A stretch of 11,510 bases of DNA from Clostridiales bacterium (GTDB lineage Bacteria > Bacillota_A > Clostridia > Oscillospirales > Oscillospiraceae). Positions 4,862 through 11,510 of the stretch are shown piece after piece. The stretch is from contig JAAVHY010000040.1 in NCBI GenBank assembly GCA_014799485.1, positions 1 through 11,510 of the forward strand, given 5' to 3'. The number at the start of each line of letters is the position of its first letter. Position 1 is the stretch's first letter. The position numbers and the translations under genes are program-made. The notes below the pieces were generated by a model. It did not search any database and was not told the DNA's origin. It was given only the letters and a program-made list of their open reading frames with translations.

Positions 4862-4893
4862 GCTGTTTCACACTACTCAAAGGAGGTCACTCT

Positions 4894-6804
4894 ATGTTGT
4901 TCCAGACCACGCAGGCCCACGAGGAGCTGCGCGCCAAGATCCGCGCCTTCGCCGAGGCGGAGGTGAAGCCCAACGCCATCCTCATGGACCAGGAGAGCAA
5001 ATTTCCCGCCGAGGCCATCAAAAAGCTGGCCGAAATGGGGCTGATGGGCATCCCCTATCCCAAGGAGTACGGCGGCGCGGGGCTCGACGTGATGAGCTAC
5101 GCCATCGCCGTGGAGGAGCTGTCCCGGGTGGACGGCGGCACGGGCGTCATCCTGTCCGCCCATGTGTCCCTGGGCACCTGGCCCATCTTTGCTTTCGGCA
5201 CCGAGGAGCAGAAGCAGAAGTACCTGGTCCCGTTGGCCAAGGGCGAGAAGATCGGCGCCTTCGGCCTGACCGAGCCCAACGCCGGCTCCGACGCGGGCGG
5301 CACCGAGACCACCGCCATCGATAAGGGCGACCACTGGCTGCTCAACGGCCAGAAGATCTTCATCACCAACGGCGGCGTGGCGGACACCTACGTGGTCTTT
5401 GCCGTCACCACCCCCGACATCGGCACCCGGGGCATCTCCGCCTTCATCGTGGAAAAGGGCTGGAAGGGCTTTACCTTCGAGCCCCACTACGACAAAATGG
5501 GCATCCGCTCCTCCGAGACCTGCCAGCTCAACTTCGACGACGTGAAGGTGCCCAAGGAGAACCTGCTGGGCAAGGAGGGCCAGGGCTTCAAGATCGCCAT
5601 GGCCACCCTGGACGGCGGGCGCATCGGCATCGCCTCCCAGGCCCTGGGCATTGCCCAGGGGGCCTACGAGTCCGCCGTGGAGTACGCCAAGGAGCGCGTC
5701 CAGTTCGGCAAGCCCATCGGCTTCAACCAGGCCCTCACCTTCAAGCTGGCCGACATGGCCACCAAGCTGAAGTGCGCCCGGATGCTGGTCTACTCCGCCG
5801 CCGAGAAGAAGGAACACCACGAGCCCTACAGCGTGGACGCCGCCATGGCCAAGCTGTACGCCTCCGAGACCGCCCTGGAGGTCGTCAACGACGCGGTGCA
5901 GATCTACGGCGGCACCGGCTTCCTCAAGGGCATGGACGTGGAGCGGATGTACCGCGACGCCAAGATCACCACCATCTACGAGGGCACCAGCGAGGTGCAG
6001 CGCATGGTCATCGGCGCGTCCATCATGGGCAAGCCCCCCAAGAGCGCGGGCGGCTCCTCCAGCGTGGCCAAGAAGCCCGCCCCCATCACCGGGGTGCGCA
6101 AGGGCATGATCCTCAAAGAGGGCGGTGCCAAGGAGCGGGTGGACGCCCTGGTGGCCGCGCTGAAGAAGGACGGCTACGACTTCTCCGTGGGCATCCCCAT
6201 CGACACCCCCATCGCCCAGGCGGAGCGGGTGGTGTCCGCCGGCCAGGGCATCGGCTCCAAGGAGAACATGAAGCTCATTGAGGACCTGGCGAAAGCCGCC
6301 GGCGCGGCCATCGGCTCCAGCCGTCCCGTGGCCGAGACCCACAAGTTCGTCCCCCTCAACCGCTACGTGGGCATGTCCGGCCAGAAGTTCAAGGGCAACC
6401 TGTATATCGCCTGCGGCATCTCCGGCGCGGTCCAGCACCTGAAGGGCATCAAGGACGCCTCCACCATCGTGGCCATCAACAAGAGCTCCAACGCCCCCAT
6501 CTTCAAGAACTGCGACTACGGCATCGTGGGCGATGTGAACGAGATCCTGCCCCTGCTGGCCGAGGCCCTGGGTCTGGAGGAAAAGCAGCCCGCGCCTCCC
6601 ATGGTGAAGATGAAGCGGCCCCCCGCCCCCAAGCCCGAGCCCATCGGCAAGCGCTACGTGTGCATGGGCTGCGGCTACGAGTACGTCCCCGAGCTGGGCG
6701 ACCCGGACGGCGACGTGGCCCCCGGCACCCTGTTCGAGAACCTGCCCGAGGGCTGGGCCTGCCCCGAGTGCGCCGAGACCCGGGACAAGTTCATCGAAGC
6801 ATAA
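4894..6804 (+). CDS. fusion: acyl-CoA dehydrogenase / EtfA FAD domain / rubredoxin
   Basis: This 636-residue cytoplasmic protein joins three electron carriers. Residues 1 to about 385 are a complete acyl-CoA dehydrogenase of the short-chain (butyryl-CoA) type. It has FGLTEPNAGSDAG and IFITNGG around the flavin, and the catalytic base Glu363 in YEGTSE, matching Glu367 of the Megasphaera enzyme. After a linker, about 443-565 is the C-terminal FAD-binding domain of electron-transfer flavoprotein alpha (VSAGQGIG, GISGAVQH near 509-515, AINKSSNAPIF). The N-terminal EtfA domain and EtfB are absent. Residues about 585-636 form a rubredoxin with Cys590, Cys593, Cys623 and Cys626. The likely path is acyl-CoA to FAD to FAD to the rubredoxin iron, then to FprA encoded 24 nt downstream. 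I chose the ATG at 4894 because AAGGAGG lies 7 nt before it; an in-frame GTG at 4840 sits on the transcription start. The exact substrate is not determined. Confidence 0.93.
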   Translation: MLFQTTQAHEELRAKIRAFAEAEVKPNAILMDQESKFPAEAIKKLAEMGLMGIPYPKEYGGAGLDVMSYAIAVEELSRVDGGTGVILSAHVSLGTWPIFAFGTEEQKQKYLVPLAKGEKIGAFGLTEPNAGSDAGGTETTAIDKGDHWLLNGQKIFITNGGVADTYVVFAVTTPDIGTRGISAFIVEKGWKGFTFEPHYDKMGIRSSETCQLNFDDVKVPKENLLGKEGQGFKIAMATLDGGRIGIASQALGIAQGAYESAVEYAKERVQFGKPIGFNQALTFKLADMATKLKCARMLVYSAAEKKEHHEPYSVDAAMAKLYASETALEVVNDAVQIYGGTGFLKGMDVERMYRDAKITTIYEGTSEVQRMVIGASIMGKPPKSAGGSSSVAKKPAPITGVRKGMILKEGGAKERVDALVAALKKDGYDFSVGIPIDTPIAQAERVVSAGQGIGSKENMKLIEDLAKAAGAAIGSSRPVAETHKFVPLNRYVGMSGQKFKGNLYIACGISGAVQHLKGIKDASTIVAINKSSNAPIFKNCDYGIVGDVNEILPLLAEALGLEEKQPAPPMVKMKRPPAPKPEPIGKRYVCMGCGYEYVPELGDPDGDVAPGTLFENLPEGWACPECAETRDKFIEA

Positions 6805-6828: not shown

Positions 6829-8046
6829 ATGTACTGTGTCCGCACTGTCACCGATAACCTGTACTGGGTGGGCGCCAACGACCACCGCACCCATCTGTTT
6901 GAGAACATCCATCCCATCCCCCGGGGCGTGAGCTACAACGCCTACCTGCTGATGGACAAGTCCACCGTCCTGTTCGACACCGTGGACTGGTCCGTCTGCC
7001 GCCAGCTCATCGAGAACCTGGACCACCTGCTGGGCGACCGGCCCCTGGACTATCTGGTCATCAACCACATGGAGCCCGACCACGGCGCGTCCATCGAGGA
7101 GATCCTGATCCGCTGGCCCAACGTGAAGATCATTTCCACCGCCAAGGCCTTCATGCTCATGCGGCAGTTCGGCTTCACCGTGGACAACCAGGAGCAGATC
7201 GAGGTCAAGGAAGGGGACACCTACTGCTTCGGCGACCACACCGTCACCTTCATCGCCGCCCCCATGGTCCACTGGCCCGAGGCCATGGTCACCTTTGACA
7301 CCACCAACGGCGTGCTCTTCTCCGCCGACGCCTTTGGCTCCTTCATCGCCCTGGACGGCAAGCTCTTCGCCGACGAGGTGAACTTCGACCGGGACTGGAT
7401 CGACGAGGCCCGCCGTTACCTCACCAATATCGTGGGCAAGTACGGCCCCCAGGTGCAGGCACTGCTGAAAAAGGCCGCCGGCATCCTGGACCAGATCAAG
7501 TATATCTGCCCCCTCCACGGCCCCGTGTGGCGTGAAAACCTGCTGTACTTCGTGGACAAGTACGACAAGTGGAGCAAGTACCAGCCCGAGGAGCAGGGCG
7601 TGATGATCGCCTACGCCTCCATGTACGGCAACACCGAGGGCGCCGCCCAGGCCCTGGCCGCCAAGCTGGTGGAAAAGGGCTGCGCCAACGTGTGGGTGTA
7701 CGACGTGTCCAACACCCACGTCTCCCAGCTGGTGAGCGAGGCCTTCCGCCTCAGCCACCTGGTGTTCGCCTCCGTCACCTACAACCTGGGCATCTACCCC
7801 GTGATGCACGACTTCCTCATGCACCTCAAGGCCCTCAACTTCCAGAACCGCACCTGCGCCATCATCGAGAACGGCTCCTGGGCCGTCAAGTCCGGCGATC
7901 TGATGCAGAAGTTCCTGGAGGACGAGATGAAGAACATGACCGTGCTGGGCGACCGGCTCAGCCTGGCCTCCGCCCTCCATCCCGACAAGGCGTCCGAGCT
8001 GGACGCCCTGGCCGACGCCATCATCGAGTCCATGGCGAAGGAGTAA
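6829..8046 (+). CDS. fprA: flavodiiron protein (FprA family, O2/NO reductase)
   Basis: This is a 405-residue class A flavodiiron protein. The N-terminal metallo-beta-lactamase-like half carries the diiron ligands: His80, Glu82 and Asp84 in HMEPDH, then His148, Asp167 and His230, all within one or a few positions of the Desulfovibrio and Moorella enzymes. The C-terminal flavodoxin domain starts near residue 258 with the FMN phosphate loop (IAYASMYGNTEG). The family reduces O2 to water or NO to N2O in the cytoplasm of anaerobes, normally taking electrons from rubredoxin. No rubredoxin is fused here, but the gene just upstream ends in one, so the pair looks like reductase and partner. Start: ATG with AAGGAGG 10 nt upstream. 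Co-transcription is inferred from the 24-nt gap and the terminator that follows. Whether O2 or NO is preferred cannot be read from sequence. Confidence 0.95.
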   Translation: MYCVRTVTDNLYWVGANDHRTHLFENIHPIPRGVSYNAYLLMDKSTVLFDTVDWSVCRQLIENLDHLLGDRPLDYLVINHMEPDHGASIEEILIRWPNVKIISTAKAFMLMRQFGFTVDNQEQIEVKEGDTYCFGDHTVTFIAAPMVHWPEAMVTFDTTNGVLFSADAFGSFIALDGKLFADEVNFDRDWIDEARRYLTNIVGKYGPQVQALLKKAAGILDQIKYICPLHGPVWRENLLYFVDKYDKWSKYQPEEQGVMIAYASMYGNTEGAAQALAAKLVEKGCANVWVYDVSNTHVSQLVSEAFRLSHLVFASVTYNLGIYPVMHDFLMHLKALNFQNRTCAIIENGSWAVKSGDLMQKFLEDEMKNMTVLGDRLSLASALHPDKASELDALADAIIESMAKE

Positions 8047-8060
8047 GCCCCATATGCAGG

Positions 8061-8094
8061 AAAAGGCCCCGGGACAATGTCCCGGGGCCTTTTT
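8061..8094 (+). terminator. strong intrinsic terminator of the operon
   Basis: A perfect 15-bp, GC-rich stem (8061-8075 with 8079-8093) has a 3-nt loop and runs into TTTTT at 8090-8094. The mirrored A run also gives a T-tail on the minus strand, so it may end the convergent beta-helix gene too. Confidence 0.92.
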
Positions 8095-8123
8095 AGCAGG
8101 CTTTTACTGATTGGGGACCAGCC

Positions 8124-9887
8124 TTACTCCGTCAGTTCCGCACTGTAGAATTCAGCCAGCACCTCGTGGCAGTTGAGCACGGCCTCGTCCTCATCCCCCT
8201 TCAGGGTGGTGAGTTCGGGCATGACCATGTCGCTGTACACCGCGAAATTGGCCAGGATGTCCCGCACGAAGGCCACCGTGACCAGCTCATCGGGGTCAAA
8301 GCCGTCATCGGGGATGATCTCGATGGAGTGGGCCCAGCTGATGGCCGGGGCGTACTCATGATCCCCAACCACCTCGACCTCGGGCTCACCCTCGTGCCGC
8401 CACAGGTAGTCGACGAACTCGCCGCAGGTCACCGGCCCTTCAGCCAGAGGCACGGTAGGATCGTCGATCTCAATGGTCGGCTCGTCAGAAACGTACAGCG
8501 AAGGATCGGTGGGAACGACCACCACGGGCGCGGGCTCCAGGGCGGGGATCTCCTGAATTTCATGCCCGTCGCAGCCCTCGGCCCGGCAGAAGCGCTCCTG
8601 AGCACCGGGGACGCCGATCTCGGCCTCGCTGATGGTCATCCACTCGGTCCAGATATGGTCAGAGTGATCGACCACGCTGTAGGTGCCGTCCTCGTTCGCC
8701 AGGAAGGCATAGCCCTCCGCGAGGTACTCGTCACCGAGCAGCTCGGAGAACGTGCCGCCGGTAAGGCTGGTCGAAGACTTGTCGCCCTCATTCTTCACGG
8801 TCACGTCGCCCTTGATGGTGCCGCCGCTCATCGTGAAGGAGCCGTTGCCCTGGCTGGACGAGCCATGCACCTGCACGCCGTCAACCCTGCCGTCATTGGC
8901 GCTGTTGCCGCTGATCTCGCCGCCGGTCATGGTGAAGCTGCCCTGATGGACACCCACGCCGCCGCCGCTGCCGCCGTTTCCGGCAGTGTTGCCGCTGATC
9001 TTGCCGTCGGTCATCGTGAAGGAGGCACCTTCCTTGACCCAGACGCCGCCGCCACCGCCGCCAGAGCTGGCGGAGGTGTTGCCGCTGACCTCGCCGCCGT
9101 TCATCTCAACGGAGGCGTTGTCCGACCTCGCGCCAACGCCGCCGCCGTTCTGTTGGGCCTCGTTGTCGCTGACCTTGCCGCCGTTTATGGTGGCACTGCC
9201 GTTGGTCACGTACACGCCGCCGCCGTTTGCGGCGGTGTTCCCGCTGATCTCGCCGCCGTTCATGGTGAAGCTGCCGCCGCCGGCCACACTCACGCCGCCG
9301 CCGCCAGCAGTGATGCCGGTGTTGCCGGACTCATTGCCGCTGACCTTGCCGCCGTTCATGGTGAAGCTGCCGCCGTCCACATTCACGCCGCCGCCGTTAT
9401 GTCCGGTAGCGTTGCCCGTGATGGAGCCGCTTTCCAGCGTGAGGTTGCCGCCGTTGGTGACCTTGACGCCGCTGTCCCAGCCGCCGGTGATCTTGCCGGT
9501 GGCTTCGCTGCTGGTGTCCTTGATGGTCAGGCTGCCTTCCACCTGGACGGTGGAATGGACGCCGTTCCTATTCGCCGCGACACCATCGCGCCCGTAGTCA
9601 ACGCTGTTGCCGTTGAGATCCAGGGTGACGTTTTTGTCGGTCCCGACCTTGAGGCCCTCTTCGCCCGCTTCGCGCTTAACGTCCTCGTGGAGCTTGACGG
9701 TATCGGTATCCTTATCGTAGCCGATCCTGTCATTACCTTCGTCATCACGCAGGGAGGTCTTATTGTCGATCACGTTCTGGAGGTCCGTAAACGACGCCGC
9801 GAAAGACGGGGCCACAAGGCTGACGCACAGGGCCAGCGAGGTGAATACGGCGAAGCCGCGCTTGCCAAATAATTTGTGCATTTTCAT
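8124..9887 (-). CDS. secreted beta-helix repeat protein with degenerate SLH-like C-terminus
   Basis: This 587-residue exported protein is not a family I can name. A signal peptide covers about residues 1-30 (basic start with KLFGKR, hydrophobic core, likely cut after SFA). The middle has eight or nine imperfect repeats of about 25-33 residues around FTMNGG-x-ISGN plus GGGV-x-V, as in parallel beta-helix surface proteins. A segment HIWTEW with two cysteines follows. The acidic C-terminal part contains CGEFVDYLWRHEGEP, then AISWAH and GFDPDELVTVAFVRDIL, resembling an S-layer homology repeat that has lost its key residues. No LPxTG sorting signal or membrane anchor is seen. I chose the ATG at 9887 (MKMHKL), 9 nt after AAGGA; the ATG at 9881 is possible. 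Expression is probably set by c-di-GMP through the leader. A role in adhesion or the cell envelope is inferred. Confidence 0.85.
   Translation of the reverse strand: MKMHKLFGKRGFAVFTSLALCVSLVAPSFAASFTDLQNVIDNKTSLRDDEGNDRIGYDKDTDTVKLHEDVKREAGEEGLKVGTDKNVTLDLNGNSVDYGRDGVAANRNGVHSTVQVEGSLTIKDTSSEATGKITGGWDSGVKVTNGGNLTLESGSITGNATGHNGGGVNVDGGSFTMNGGKVSGNESGNTGITAGGGGVSVAGGGSFTMNGGEISGNTAANGGGVYVTNGSATINGGKVSDNEAQQNGGGVGARSDNASVEMNGGEVSGNTSASSGGGGGGVWVKEGASFTMTDGKISGNTAGNGGSGGGVGVHQGSFTMTGGEISGNSANDGRVDGVQVHGSSSQGNGSFTMSGGTIKGDVTVKNEGDKSSTSLTGGTFSELLGDEYLAEGYAFLANEDGTYSVVDHSDHIWTEWMTISEAEIGVPGAQERFCRAEGCDGHEIQEIPALEPAPVVVVPTDPSLYVSDEPTIEIDDPTVPLAEGPVTCGEFVDYLWRHEGEPEVEVVGDHEYAPAISWAHSIEIIPDDGFDPDELVTVAFVRDILANFAVYSDMVMPELTTLKGDEDEAVLNCHEVLAEFYSAELTE
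8748..9449 (-). repeat. in-gene tandem repeats encoding beta-helix rungs
   Basis: Eight or nine degenerate coding repeats of about 75-100 bp, each encoding a core like SFTMNGG followed by xISGN and a Gly-rich GGGV turn. Spacer length between cores varies. The DNA is rich in GCCGCC on the plus strand, which also keeps a long antisense frame open. Confidence 0.85.
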
Positions 9888-9932
9888 GTTCCTCTTTCCT
9901 TTCTTTGCATTGCTCGGACGCAAAGAAGTCCG
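9888..9932 (-). promoter_or_regulatory. riboswitch expression platform and ribosome binding site
   Basis: Between the last aptamer and the start codon, CTTTGCGTCC (9925-9916) is the exact complement of GGACGCAAAG, the conserved core of the aptamers. The same bases can instead form CGGAC/GTCCG (9932-9928 with 9919-9915), or pair TTCTTTGC (9927-9920) with GCAAAGAA (9908-9901), which abuts the ribosome binding site AGGAAAGAGG (9900-9891). No T-run follows, so control of translation is more likely than termination. Confidence 0.55.
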
Positions 9933-10005
9933 GTAATCGAACGAGCATAGGGCATTCGCCCCTTAGCCTCTGATTTTGCGTCCCGCGGTTTCCCGCGGTT
10001 TGCCA
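9931..10005 (-). promoter_or_regulatory. c-di-GMP-I (GEMM) riboswitch aptamer, third copy (gene-proximal)
   Basis: On the minus strand GGCAAA (10004-9999), stem CCGCGG/CCGCGG (9998-9993 with 9988-9983) capped by a GAAA tetraloop, then GGACGCAAA. P3 follows with GAGGCTAA and a GGGC/GCCC hairpin, then CTATG and the 3' GATTAC. The usual AAAGCC reads AAAATC here, but the partner reads GAT instead of GGT, so the P3 base pairs are kept. Cytosine 9933 corresponds to the ligand-pairing C92 of Vc2. Confidence 0.88.
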
Positions 10006-10086
10006 TGCAACCGAACGAGCGTGGCCCGGTCTCCCGTGCCGACGCCTCTGGCTTTGCGTCCCATTGTTTCCAATGGTTTGCCAAAA
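10006..10086 (-). promoter_or_regulatory. c-di-GMP-I (GEMM) riboswitch aptamer, second copy
   Basis: On the minus strand GGCAAA (10082-10077), stem CCATTG/CAATGG (10076-10071 with 10066-10061) with a GAAA tetraloop, then GGACGCAAAGCC (10061-10050). The P3 side ends CGGTTGC (10013-10007), and GCC (10052-10050) pairs with GGT (10012-10010). The conserved segments and their order match the GEMM-I consensus. Confidence 0.9.
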
Positions 10087-10182
10087 TCGCAACCCGGCGA
10101 ACATAGCATCGGAAAGGTTTCCGCTGCGGTAGTCCCGTAGCTTTGCGTCCCACAGTTTCCTGTGGTTTGCCAAATGCGCCTT
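10087..10182 (-). promoter_or_regulatory. c-di-GMP-I (GEMM) riboswitch aptamer, first copy (promoter-proximal)
   Basis: On the minus strand GGCAAA (10171-10166), stem CCACAG/CTGTGG (10165-10160 with 10155-10150) with a GAAA tetraloop, then GGACGCAAAGC. P3 carries GGGACT, CTATG and GCCGGGTTGC (10098-10089), the closest of the three copies to clostridial GEMM-I sequences. Outer CGCA (10178-10175) can pair with TGCG (10091-10088) as P1. Confidence 0.92.
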
Positions 10183-10190
10183 GCTGGTTC

Positions 10191-10326
10191 CCCGCCGCCT
10201 TAGGCGCGTTCGGCGGCGGGCCGCTCTCAGAGCAGATCGTTTTCCATTTGCATTCCCCCATTTCTCAGTAAAAGCCGCTGTTCGTGCTGGTAACAACACG
10301 AACAAACACCTATCAAATAGGTGTTT
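10191..10326 (-). other. 5' leader hairpins upstream of the riboswitches
   Basis: Three inverted repeats lie between the transcription start and the first aptamer: a perfect 10-bp repeat AAACACCTAT/ATAGGTGTTT with a 3-nt loop at 10326-10304, a 10-bp repeat with one G-U pair at 10303-10280, and a 9-bp GC-only repeat CCCGCCGCC/GGCGGCGGG at 10220-10191. None has a T-run, so they are not terminators. The first begins almost at the predicted transcription start and could protect the RNA end or be a DNA operator. Confidence 0.6.
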
Positions 10327-10334
10327 CCACTTAC

Positions 10335-10363
10335 ATTATATACCACCCGCAGGGGAAAAGCAA
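10335..10363 (-). promoter_or_regulatory. sigma-A promoter of the riboswitch leader and beta-helix gene
   Basis: On the minus strand TTGCTT (10363-10358), 17 nt, then a perfect TATAAT (10340-10335), in an AT-rich stretch unlike its surroundings. Transcription should start near 10328, giving a leader of about 440 nt that holds all three aptamers. Confidence 0.8.
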
Positions 10364-10559: not shown

Positions 10560-11510
10560 TCAGCTCTCCATGTGGCGGCCCAAAAACCCGGCCACCGTCT
10601 GGGCCAGCTTCAGCTCCACCTCGCCCAAGGCGGGGGCGTCGCCGTCGGACACGAAGGCCACGCAGCCCAGCACGTCCCCCTCCGACAAAATGGGCACGGC
10701 GATAAGCACCCTATACTTGTCGCTGCCGTCGCACAGGGGCAGGTTCTGCTCGGCCTGGACGCTCCGGCGCTCTTCCATCAGCTGTTCCACCTGGGGGGCC
10801 ACCCGTTTGTCCACCACCTCCCGGCGGGGGACGCCGCCGGCGGCGATGACGCTGTCCCGGTCGGTGATGACGGCGGGCAGGCCCGCCACCCGGCTGATGG
10901 TGTCGCACAGCTGTGCGGCGAAGTCAGAGACGTCGCCCAATTGGGAGTATTTTTTGAAAATGACGCCGCCTTCCCGGTCGGTGTAGATCTCCAAGGGGTC
11001 GCCGTCGCTGATAACACGGACACTGAAAACCTTATTGTGATGCTTGTCGCTCTCCTGGACGATCTCGATTTCGTAGGGGCGGGGATTCACGGGGGCCATG
11101 GCAGCCACGGCCTCGGGCTTCTCCTCGGGGATGGTTCCGCTTTGCAGGATGCTGTCCACGTCCGCCTGGAGCTGGATGTCCAGGTGATCCTCGTACACCA
11201 CGATTTTCCGGATGATGAGCTCCAGGTCGGCCCGCTCCAGCTTTTCCTTGTTCAGAATGTCGTCGAATACCTCCATGGCGGTTTTTGCCGCCCGGTTCAC
11301 CCGGATGATGGTGTTGCGCTTGTCCGCCGTCATGGCGATCTGGTTTTGCAGGCCCTCTATCCGGCGCAGAAGGTCGCTTTCCAGCTCGTCGTAGGTCTCC
11401 TCCAGCGTCTCCTCCCGATCGGGATGCTTCATGATGTCCCGGATGCGCTGGCGCTTGGTGGCCTTCAGCTCCTCCTGGAGATCAGCCAGCACCGCTTCCA
11501 GGTTGGCGGC
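10560..11510 (-). CDS. large serine recombinase C-terminus fused in frame to SpoVT lacking its N-terminus (partial)
   Basis: The frame is open to the right edge with no credible start, so its 5' part is outside. The first 120 or so visible residues are the C-terminal region of a large serine recombinase: a long coiled coil (ANLEAVLADLQEEL onward) and the typical LELIIRKIVVYEDHLDIQ segment. After a short tail the frame runs into GDPLEIYTDREGG. From there to the stop the 147 residues follow SpoVT, the forespore regulator acting with sigma-G: KKYSQLGDVSDFA, then the GAF-like domain ending GEVELKLAQTVAGFLGRHME. B. subtilis SpoVT has 178 residues with GDPLEI starting at about 31, so only the first 30, half of its AbrB DNA-binding fold, are missing. 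This looks like a mobile-element insertion in spoVT that joined the element's recombinase to the gene's 3' part. The SpoVT half should not bind DNA as it stands. A genuine domain fusion is the less likely alternative. Confidence 0.85.
   Translation of the reverse strand, partial: AANLEAVLADLQEELKATKRQRIRDIMKHPDREETLEETYDELESDLLRRIEGLQNQIAMTADKRNTIIRVNRAAKTAMEVFDDILNKEKLERADLELIIRKIVVYEDHLDIQLQADVDSILQSGTIPEEKPEAVAAMAPVNPRPYEIEIVQESDKHHNKVFSVRVISDGDPLEIYTDREGGVIFKKYSQLGDVSDFAAQLCDTISRVAGLPAVITDRDSVIAAGGVPRREVVDKRVAPQVEQLMEERRSVQAEQNLPLCDGSDKYRVLIAVPILSEGDVLGCVAFVSDGDAPALGEVELKLAQTVAGFLGRHMES
10981..11010 (-). other. probable element/spoVT junction (attachment site region)
   Basis: Protein similarity switches from recombinase to SpoVT at the codons for GDPLEI (11003-10986). 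The crossover should lie in or just 5' of these codons, with the mobile element at higher coordinates. Serine recombinases share only a short core with their target, so the exact bases cannot be set from one end. The position is inferred. Confidence 0.5.

Follow-up and report, generated by a model that had tools for sequence, protein, structure and literature searches.

Three tandem c-di-GMP-I aptamers in a surface-protein gene leader, with one conserved and probably translational platform that they may share

In the leader of a gene for a surface protein, three complete c-di-GMP-I aptamers (RF01051, Rfam covariance scan; minus strand 10171-9933) are followed by one short strand, S, complementary to the pocket strand of every one of them. 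Our tentative reading is that the three aptamers share one translation-acting platform, with the one S strand common to all cores. The leader probably stands out by having one conserved platform, likely to act on translation, for all of its aptamers. The window is the whole stretch of 11,510 nucleotides analysed (features in Table 1). The initial annotation had correctly recognised a leader with three c-di-GMP aptamers of class I preceding a surface-protein gene; two features go beyond it, namely that aptamer 2 is without the CTAAG...TATG receptor and that a 9-nt complement of all cores stands at 9924-9916.

Table 1. Features of the leader and of the gene behind it (positions in the window)
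Feature	Positions	Strand	Basis or remark
Aptamer 1, c-di-GMP-I	10089..10171	minus	contact G (G20) to contact C (C92); limits by eye
Linker 1, GATTTT, 6 nt	10083..10088	minus	sequence
Aptamer 2, c-di-GMP-I, without usual tetraloop receptor	10007..10082	minus	47.4 bits alone; sequence
Linker 2, AT, 2 nt	10005..10006	minus	sequence
Aptamer 3, c-di-GMP-I, with receptor	9933..10004	minus	69.2 bits
CGGAC, first partner of S (helix S1)	9928..9932	minus	sequence; CGGAY in 15/15 listed tails
Switch strand S, TTTGCGTCC	9916..9924	minus	fully complementary to GGACGCAAA of each aptamer
GCAAAGAA, second partner of S (helix S2)	9901..9908	minus	sequence
AAAGGA, likely Shine-Dalgarno	9897..9902	minus	first two bases common to S2; GCAAAGAAAGGA conserved
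Secreted surface protein, beta-helix-like, SLH-like C terminus	8124..9887	minus	relatives, model; start 9887 or 9881

Membership of RF01051 was judged at the gathering cut-off of 35 bits. Aptamer 1 matched at 10085-10181 (65.5 bits), aptamer 3 at 9929-10014 (69.2 bits) and aptamer 2, when 10005-10100 (96 bases) was scanned alone, at 10005-10092 (47.4 bits, E 5.7e-9). The initial annotation had named this Rfam search as its check, with fewer than three significant aptamers counting against it; three were found, and its three GEMM-I copies are thus borne out. Aptamer 2 was absent from the first Rfam table, where four overlapping matches of the same clan had been dropped; we presume that it was one of the four, because its match overlaps both neighbouring matches by 8-10 bases. 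The variant families c-di-GMP-I-GGC and c-di-GMP-I-UAU of the same group (names as in PMC12452182) might accommodate aptamers whose P3 is unusual, aptamer 2 among them; yet its best match is RF01051 (the tool omits lower-scoring matches of the clan).

The sequence GGCAAACC occurs three times on the minus strand (starts 10171, 10082 and 10004), as does the pocket strand GGACGCAAA (starts 10150, 10061 and 9983). P2 stems around the GAAA loops differ in sequence and are all perfectly paired: CCACAG/CTGTGG, CCATTG/CAATGG and CCGCGG/CCGCGG, as the initial annotation had quoted them, read on the minus strand. The GAAA loop is present in 3/3 aptamers. Judged by eye, aptamer 3 has a clear receptor for it and aptamer 1 a partial one; aptamer 2 has none, its P3 having GTCGGC...GGCCACG at the place of CTAAGG...CCTATG in aptamer 3. 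Docking of the GNRA loop of P2 into a P3 receptor is usual in RF01051 and is not required for the Rfam cut-off. The ligand-contact bases G20, A47 and C92 (Vc2 numbering) are present in all three aptamers (cmscan alignments; C92 placed by eye); their names are those used in PMC4744006. The leader (9860-10350) folds better than 100/100 shuffles (z -4.83), and binding of c-di-GMP by the three aptamers is predicted.

Directly before aptamer 1 there is a GC-rich hairpin (10182-10261, minus strand); near the likely leader start, at 10280-10326 of the same strand, there are two near-perfect consecutive hairpins, AAACACCTATTTGATAGGTGTTT and then GTTCGTGTTGTTACCAGCACGAAC.

Past the last contact C, the order is CGGAC (9932-9928), TTC, TTTGCGTCC (9924-9916), GAGCAAT, GCAAAGAAAGGA (9908-9897), 9 nt and ATG at 9887, that is, CGGAC-N3-TTTGCGTCC-N7-GCAAAGAAAGGA-N9-ATG. 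S reverse-complements GGACGCAAA exactly, and thereby all three cores; the minus strand of the window has it only once, and about 1.6e-4 occurrences would be expected in 50 nt (arithmetic with equal base frequencies). It is able to pair with CGGAC (S1) and with GCAAAGAA (S2), both simultaneously as a pseudoknot; each half of the aptamer core recurs here, one as CGGAC and the other as GCAAAG, and GCAAAGAA abuts the Shine-Dalgarno sequence. Duplex energies of S were -17.7, -17.7 and -15.6 kcal/mol with the cores and -11.3 kcal/mol on the Shine-Dalgarno side. As the linkers are only 6 and 2 nt long, there is no room for separate platforms; the layout is one of several aptamers and then one platform, which in layout only is the glycine-type arrangement.

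The database copy of the surface protein (P0001) has 585 residues and fits the second ATG at 9881, so the start codon is not certain. No Pfam or NCBIfam match to the protein was seen at E up to 0.001. In an alignment of the protein with 17 hand-chosen members of 120 listed relatives, 8/18 members had an SLH match (E up to 1, best 2.1e-4), and the window protein itself had none at that limit. Its structural model is beta-rich over 53-447 (mean pLDDT 76.9, pTM 0.66); 0/79 Foldseek matches reached E up to 0.001, the top rows, all short of that threshold, being mainly beta-helical adhesins and tailspikes. The best named relative among those listed was from Acutalibacter muris (46% identity), hence the host is likely one of the Clostridia. 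The gene on the other side of the leader (10560-11510) has a SpoVT C-terminal domain (PF15714, E 1.4e-36). The gap between two convergent genes, whose ends are at 8046 and 8124, holds a strong GC hairpin (8058-8120) that has T runs on either strand and looks by eye like a two-way terminator; Rfam gave there only a sub-threshold NsiR1 match (23.7 bits vs a cut-off of 39). Further away, at 4888-6804 of the plus strand, a single ORF has acyl-CoA dehydrogenase, electron-transfer flavoprotein alpha and rubredoxin domains.

ORFs are at times predicted across RNA of this kind, and in this way relatives of the array were found in a protein database. The 125-residue ORF crossing the leader gave 10 matches (E up to 10); one of them used as a second query gave 28, including itself and 8 of the first ten, for a total of 29 distinct ORFs (P0121-P0149; ENA among the sources for 25). 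The relatives were compared as back-translated peptides, each being tested for whether DNA containing the core GGCAAAC-N5-GNAA-N5-GGACGCAAA could encode it; both window frames, as positive control, gave back the three aptamers under the strict pattern. When no more than one mismatch was allowed, five cores fit in one ORF (P0130), four in two (P0132 and P0135, the latter without mismatch), three in 15, two in nine and one in two; thus at least two cores (two to five) fit in 27/29 database ORFs and at least three in 18/29, these counts being lower bounds since ORFs end at stops, while 870 shuffled ORFs gave one core. The sample was selected by shared words and so gives no frequency; it holds near-duplicates (P0122/P0140, P0138/P0139, P0143/P0148), and an in-frame TAA within CTAAG ends many of the ORFs, so that as a sample of receptor by array position it is biased. 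Linkers, with the shortest fitting one taken, were of 1-6 nt in 40/53 successive pairs (four of them the window's own, in two frames) and of 8-10 nt in 3/53; the other 10 back-translated pairs are without a single value.

The platform, TTTGCGTCC-N-GCAAAGAAAGGA, was exact in 12/29 database ORFs and within one mismatch in 15/29; including the two window frames these figures become 14/31 and 17/31, with shuffle means of 0.0 and 0.05. Exact S was present in 16/21 database ORFs running at least 100 nt past the last core (shuffled tails, 3.4%), and CGGAY stood 7-10 nt upstream of S in 15/15 listed database tails (shuffled upstream residues: mean 1.64, maximum 8). The five ORFs missing exact S were P0125, P0128, P0133, P0145 and P0149; in P0128 and P0145 a weaker core was seen further down, and in P0149 S is one base off at the expected place, where the letters are compatible with CGGAT...ATCCG: S1 changes on both sides and stays paired, at the price of one pair with the core. 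By eye, the letters 8 nt past AAAGGA could be an ATG in P0124 and P0149; in P0144 they could be a GTG, and the frame there continues into a signal-peptide-like stretch. The existence of other arrays of two to five aptamers with the same platform is thus supported, as far as back-translated letters can tell. Array ORFs such as P0121, P0122, P0128 and P0131 also start with a similar M..(D/N/G)PP...(A/T)P stretch; the 5′ part of the leader (10182-10261) may be conserved too.

Among the 17 one-mismatch cores, there were seven in which the mismatch was possible only at G20. The codons at this position allow only an A in the second aptamer of P0141 and only a pyrimidine in six copies: P0126, P0130 (two), P0136 and P0144 (two). 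An A at the G20 position is linked to c-AMP-GMP sensing; P0141 is possibly a mixed-ligand array, and arrays with G20 changes may hold mixed ligands or non-binding copies. G20 is described in PMC9262584 as contributing to selectivity between cyclic dinucleotides, a G20 change lowered Vc2 binding 30,000-fold as told in PMC4744006, and a key pocket change is common among c-AMP-GMP variants (PMC9481103).

One could argue from these changes that the terminal aptamer alone controls the platform, the upstream copies being drifting duplications of little weight: contact-G changes occur in some database copies (7/17 one-mismatch cores), aptamer 3 adjoins the platform and has the top score, and aptamer 2 has lost its receptor. 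We consider this explanation slightly less likely than the shared strand. In the window all three copies keep the pocket strand, the GAAA loop and perfectly paired P2 stems of differing sequence; in the databases, at least three cores per ORF were the result for 18/29, and Watson-Crick pairing of P2 fits 30/39 distinct aptamers vs a mean of 13.2 (maximum 22) for swapped halves. With G-U pairs allowed the fit is 39/39 (swapped halves: mean 22.9, maximum 30).

Returning to a platform shared by all three aptamers, the layout, the complementarity and the conservation are shown by the sequences; the steps from the capture of S onward we infer from them. The core of any ligand-free aptamer would hold S; with all cores bound by c-di-GMP, S would be released to CGGAC and GCAAAGAA, giving a pseudoknot-like fold at the ribosome site. 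Output would then follow the product of the occupancies, with a full response only when every aptamer is bound, and steepness would rise with aptamer number although each aptamer binds on its own. A steep or gated response to c-di-GMP, as the initial annotation had suggested, is plausible for such a leader. It is possible, if speculative, that the c-di-GMP-I arrays of two to five aptamers make up a class in which S, complementary to the invariant core of each aptamer, is held by any empty one; such an array would be an AND gate with N inputs for a single ligand, having one translational platform and no cooperative binding. The least certain step is the sign: it is likelier that c-di-GMP would lower translation, because S2 covers the edge of the Shine-Dalgarno sequence. 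In Clostridioides difficile the class I switches are of the OFF type (PMC11477304), an analogy that fits the likelier sign and proves nothing here.

Several results speak against the gate. At equilibrium (ViennaRNA models, which treat neither pseudoknots nor the ligand-bound tertiary fold), helix S2 was the main state already without ligand (0.66 in a first model, 0.88 in a full-array model with other blocking limits), while S paired with any core, ligand-free, made up 0.30 and 0.09 in all. With all three aptamers bound, S2 rose further, to 0.80 and 0.97, respectively. The Shine-Dalgarno sequence became more open once all were bound: the unpaired fraction went from 0.50 to 0.75 for the 12-nt region in the first model, where the ensemble with all aptamers bound is ~45 kcal/mol less favourable than the free ensemble and the blocking in aptamers 1 and 2 stops short of C92, and from 0.32 to 0.67 for AAAGGA in the full-array model. 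Only in some partly bound states of the full-array model did pairing of S with a core rise, to 0.44 (core 3) or 0.23 (core 2). Since equilibrium folding is against the gate, a switch of this kind would rest on transcription kinetics or on the pseudoknot. The base change in S of P0149, which keeps S1 and breaks one core pair, also counts against it.

Another explanation is contact between the aptamers with cooperative binding of c-di-GMP, a model put forward for tandem glycine aptamers, the single platform reading the last aptamer. With linkers of 2-6 nt the aptamers must lie close to one another, aptamer 2 itself lacks a receptor for its GAAA loop, and two aptamers with one platform are the glycine layout (PMC9481103); aptamers 1 and 3, however, need their own receptors, and copy number in the fits runs from one to five, so that we take cooperative contact to be improbable. 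By eye, the 2-nt linker permits at most two P1 pairs between aptamers 2 and 3 without borrowing neighbour bases; with so little space left for P1, neighbouring aptamers may compete or stack. In single aptamers P1 residues raise affinity: one added nucleotide took the KD of Cd1 from 1.9 to 0.25 uM (PMC9262584). The likeness of our leader to the tandem glycine aptamers of PMC9481103 lies in the layout, where more than one aptamer for the same ligand precedes a lone platform; those have another ligand, another fold and two aptamers, and section 16 of that survey does not describe for them a strand complementary to every aptamer core.

In transcription attenuation, the stem 9942-9928 followed by TTCTTTGCGT would terminate in one state; transcription is the level at which the C. 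difficile class I switches work (PMC11477304). That stem, at the end of aptamer 3, is one of two terminator-like sites on the minus strand, the other being upstream (10326-10304); yet it is weak (5 pairs), such sites are expected by chance (shuffle mean 1.4), and the conserved GCAAAGAAAGGA beside the start codon suggests translation, all of which makes attenuation quite improbable. Three independent riboswitches in series, with own platforms and a pseudo-cooperative response as in Bacillus thuringiensis, would be the arrangement given for tandem c-di-GMP-I in Table 1 of PMC9481103, and this is highly improbable here, with linkers of 6 and 2 nt where a platform per aptamer would have to fit and no terminator-like site between aptamers in the scan of the minus strand.

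Searches in other sequence collections gave no further array. Candidate DNA relatives from a search of genome contigs with the surface protein (nine loci, in Treponema, Methanoplasma, Bacteroidales and Paludibacteraceae, and Saccharibacteria) belonged to other groups and matched the protein repeats; the 14 viral-contig stretches with the tandem pattern were rejected as chance, none being RF01051 at the gathering score. At 24 GEMM-like sites (23 viral-contig stretches found by a single-aptamer pattern and one spirochaete locus) neither CGGAY nor S was in place (0/24). Platform and junction patterns had no match in viral contigs, and plasmids and phages had no match. In the phylum sample of the Treponema genome, of a different lineage from the window, c-di-GMP-I was present in 1/21 genomes. 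One viral contig (L023) carries a type II hammerhead ribozyme at 13013-13087 on the minus strand (60.4 bits).

The initial annotation had called three aptamers in series rare; the arrangement is indeed uncommon, but its kind is already in print. The triple-tandem c-di-GMP-I leader Bc3-5 of B. thuringiensis was characterised in 2016 (PMC4759541), 347 doublets and 12 triplets of c-di-GMP-I were counted in 2022 (PMC9481103), and c-di-GMP is enriched among tandem complete riboswitches (PMC12452182). Our leader is like Bc3-5 in having three class I aptamers in one leader; for Bc3-5 a steeper response with more copies was measured, a terminator is predicted per aptamer and c-di-GMP turns expression on (PMC4759541), whereas here the linkers are of 6 and 2 nt and there is one platform. 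With the tandems of PMC9481103 it has in common the same aptamer class in series before one gene; those are classed under multiple expression platforms, unlike the one platform here. The parts of PMC9481103 available to us make no mention of c-di-GMP-I arrays of four or more aptamers, and titles and abstract openings of the open-licence papers listed gave neither such arrays nor ones with a common platform. Triplets are thus already known; the layout with short linkers and one platform was not found among the papers listed.

Closely abutting arrays may be under-counted where overlapping matches are discarded, as seemingly happened with aptamer 2. According to the 2022 survey, every plausible mechanism proposed for tandem aptamers involves one aptamer influencing the binding of its neighbour (PMC9481103). 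If the proposed gate is true, a strand common to identical cores would be a mechanism without such influence: a digital response that counts empty pockets and would be tunable by copy number.
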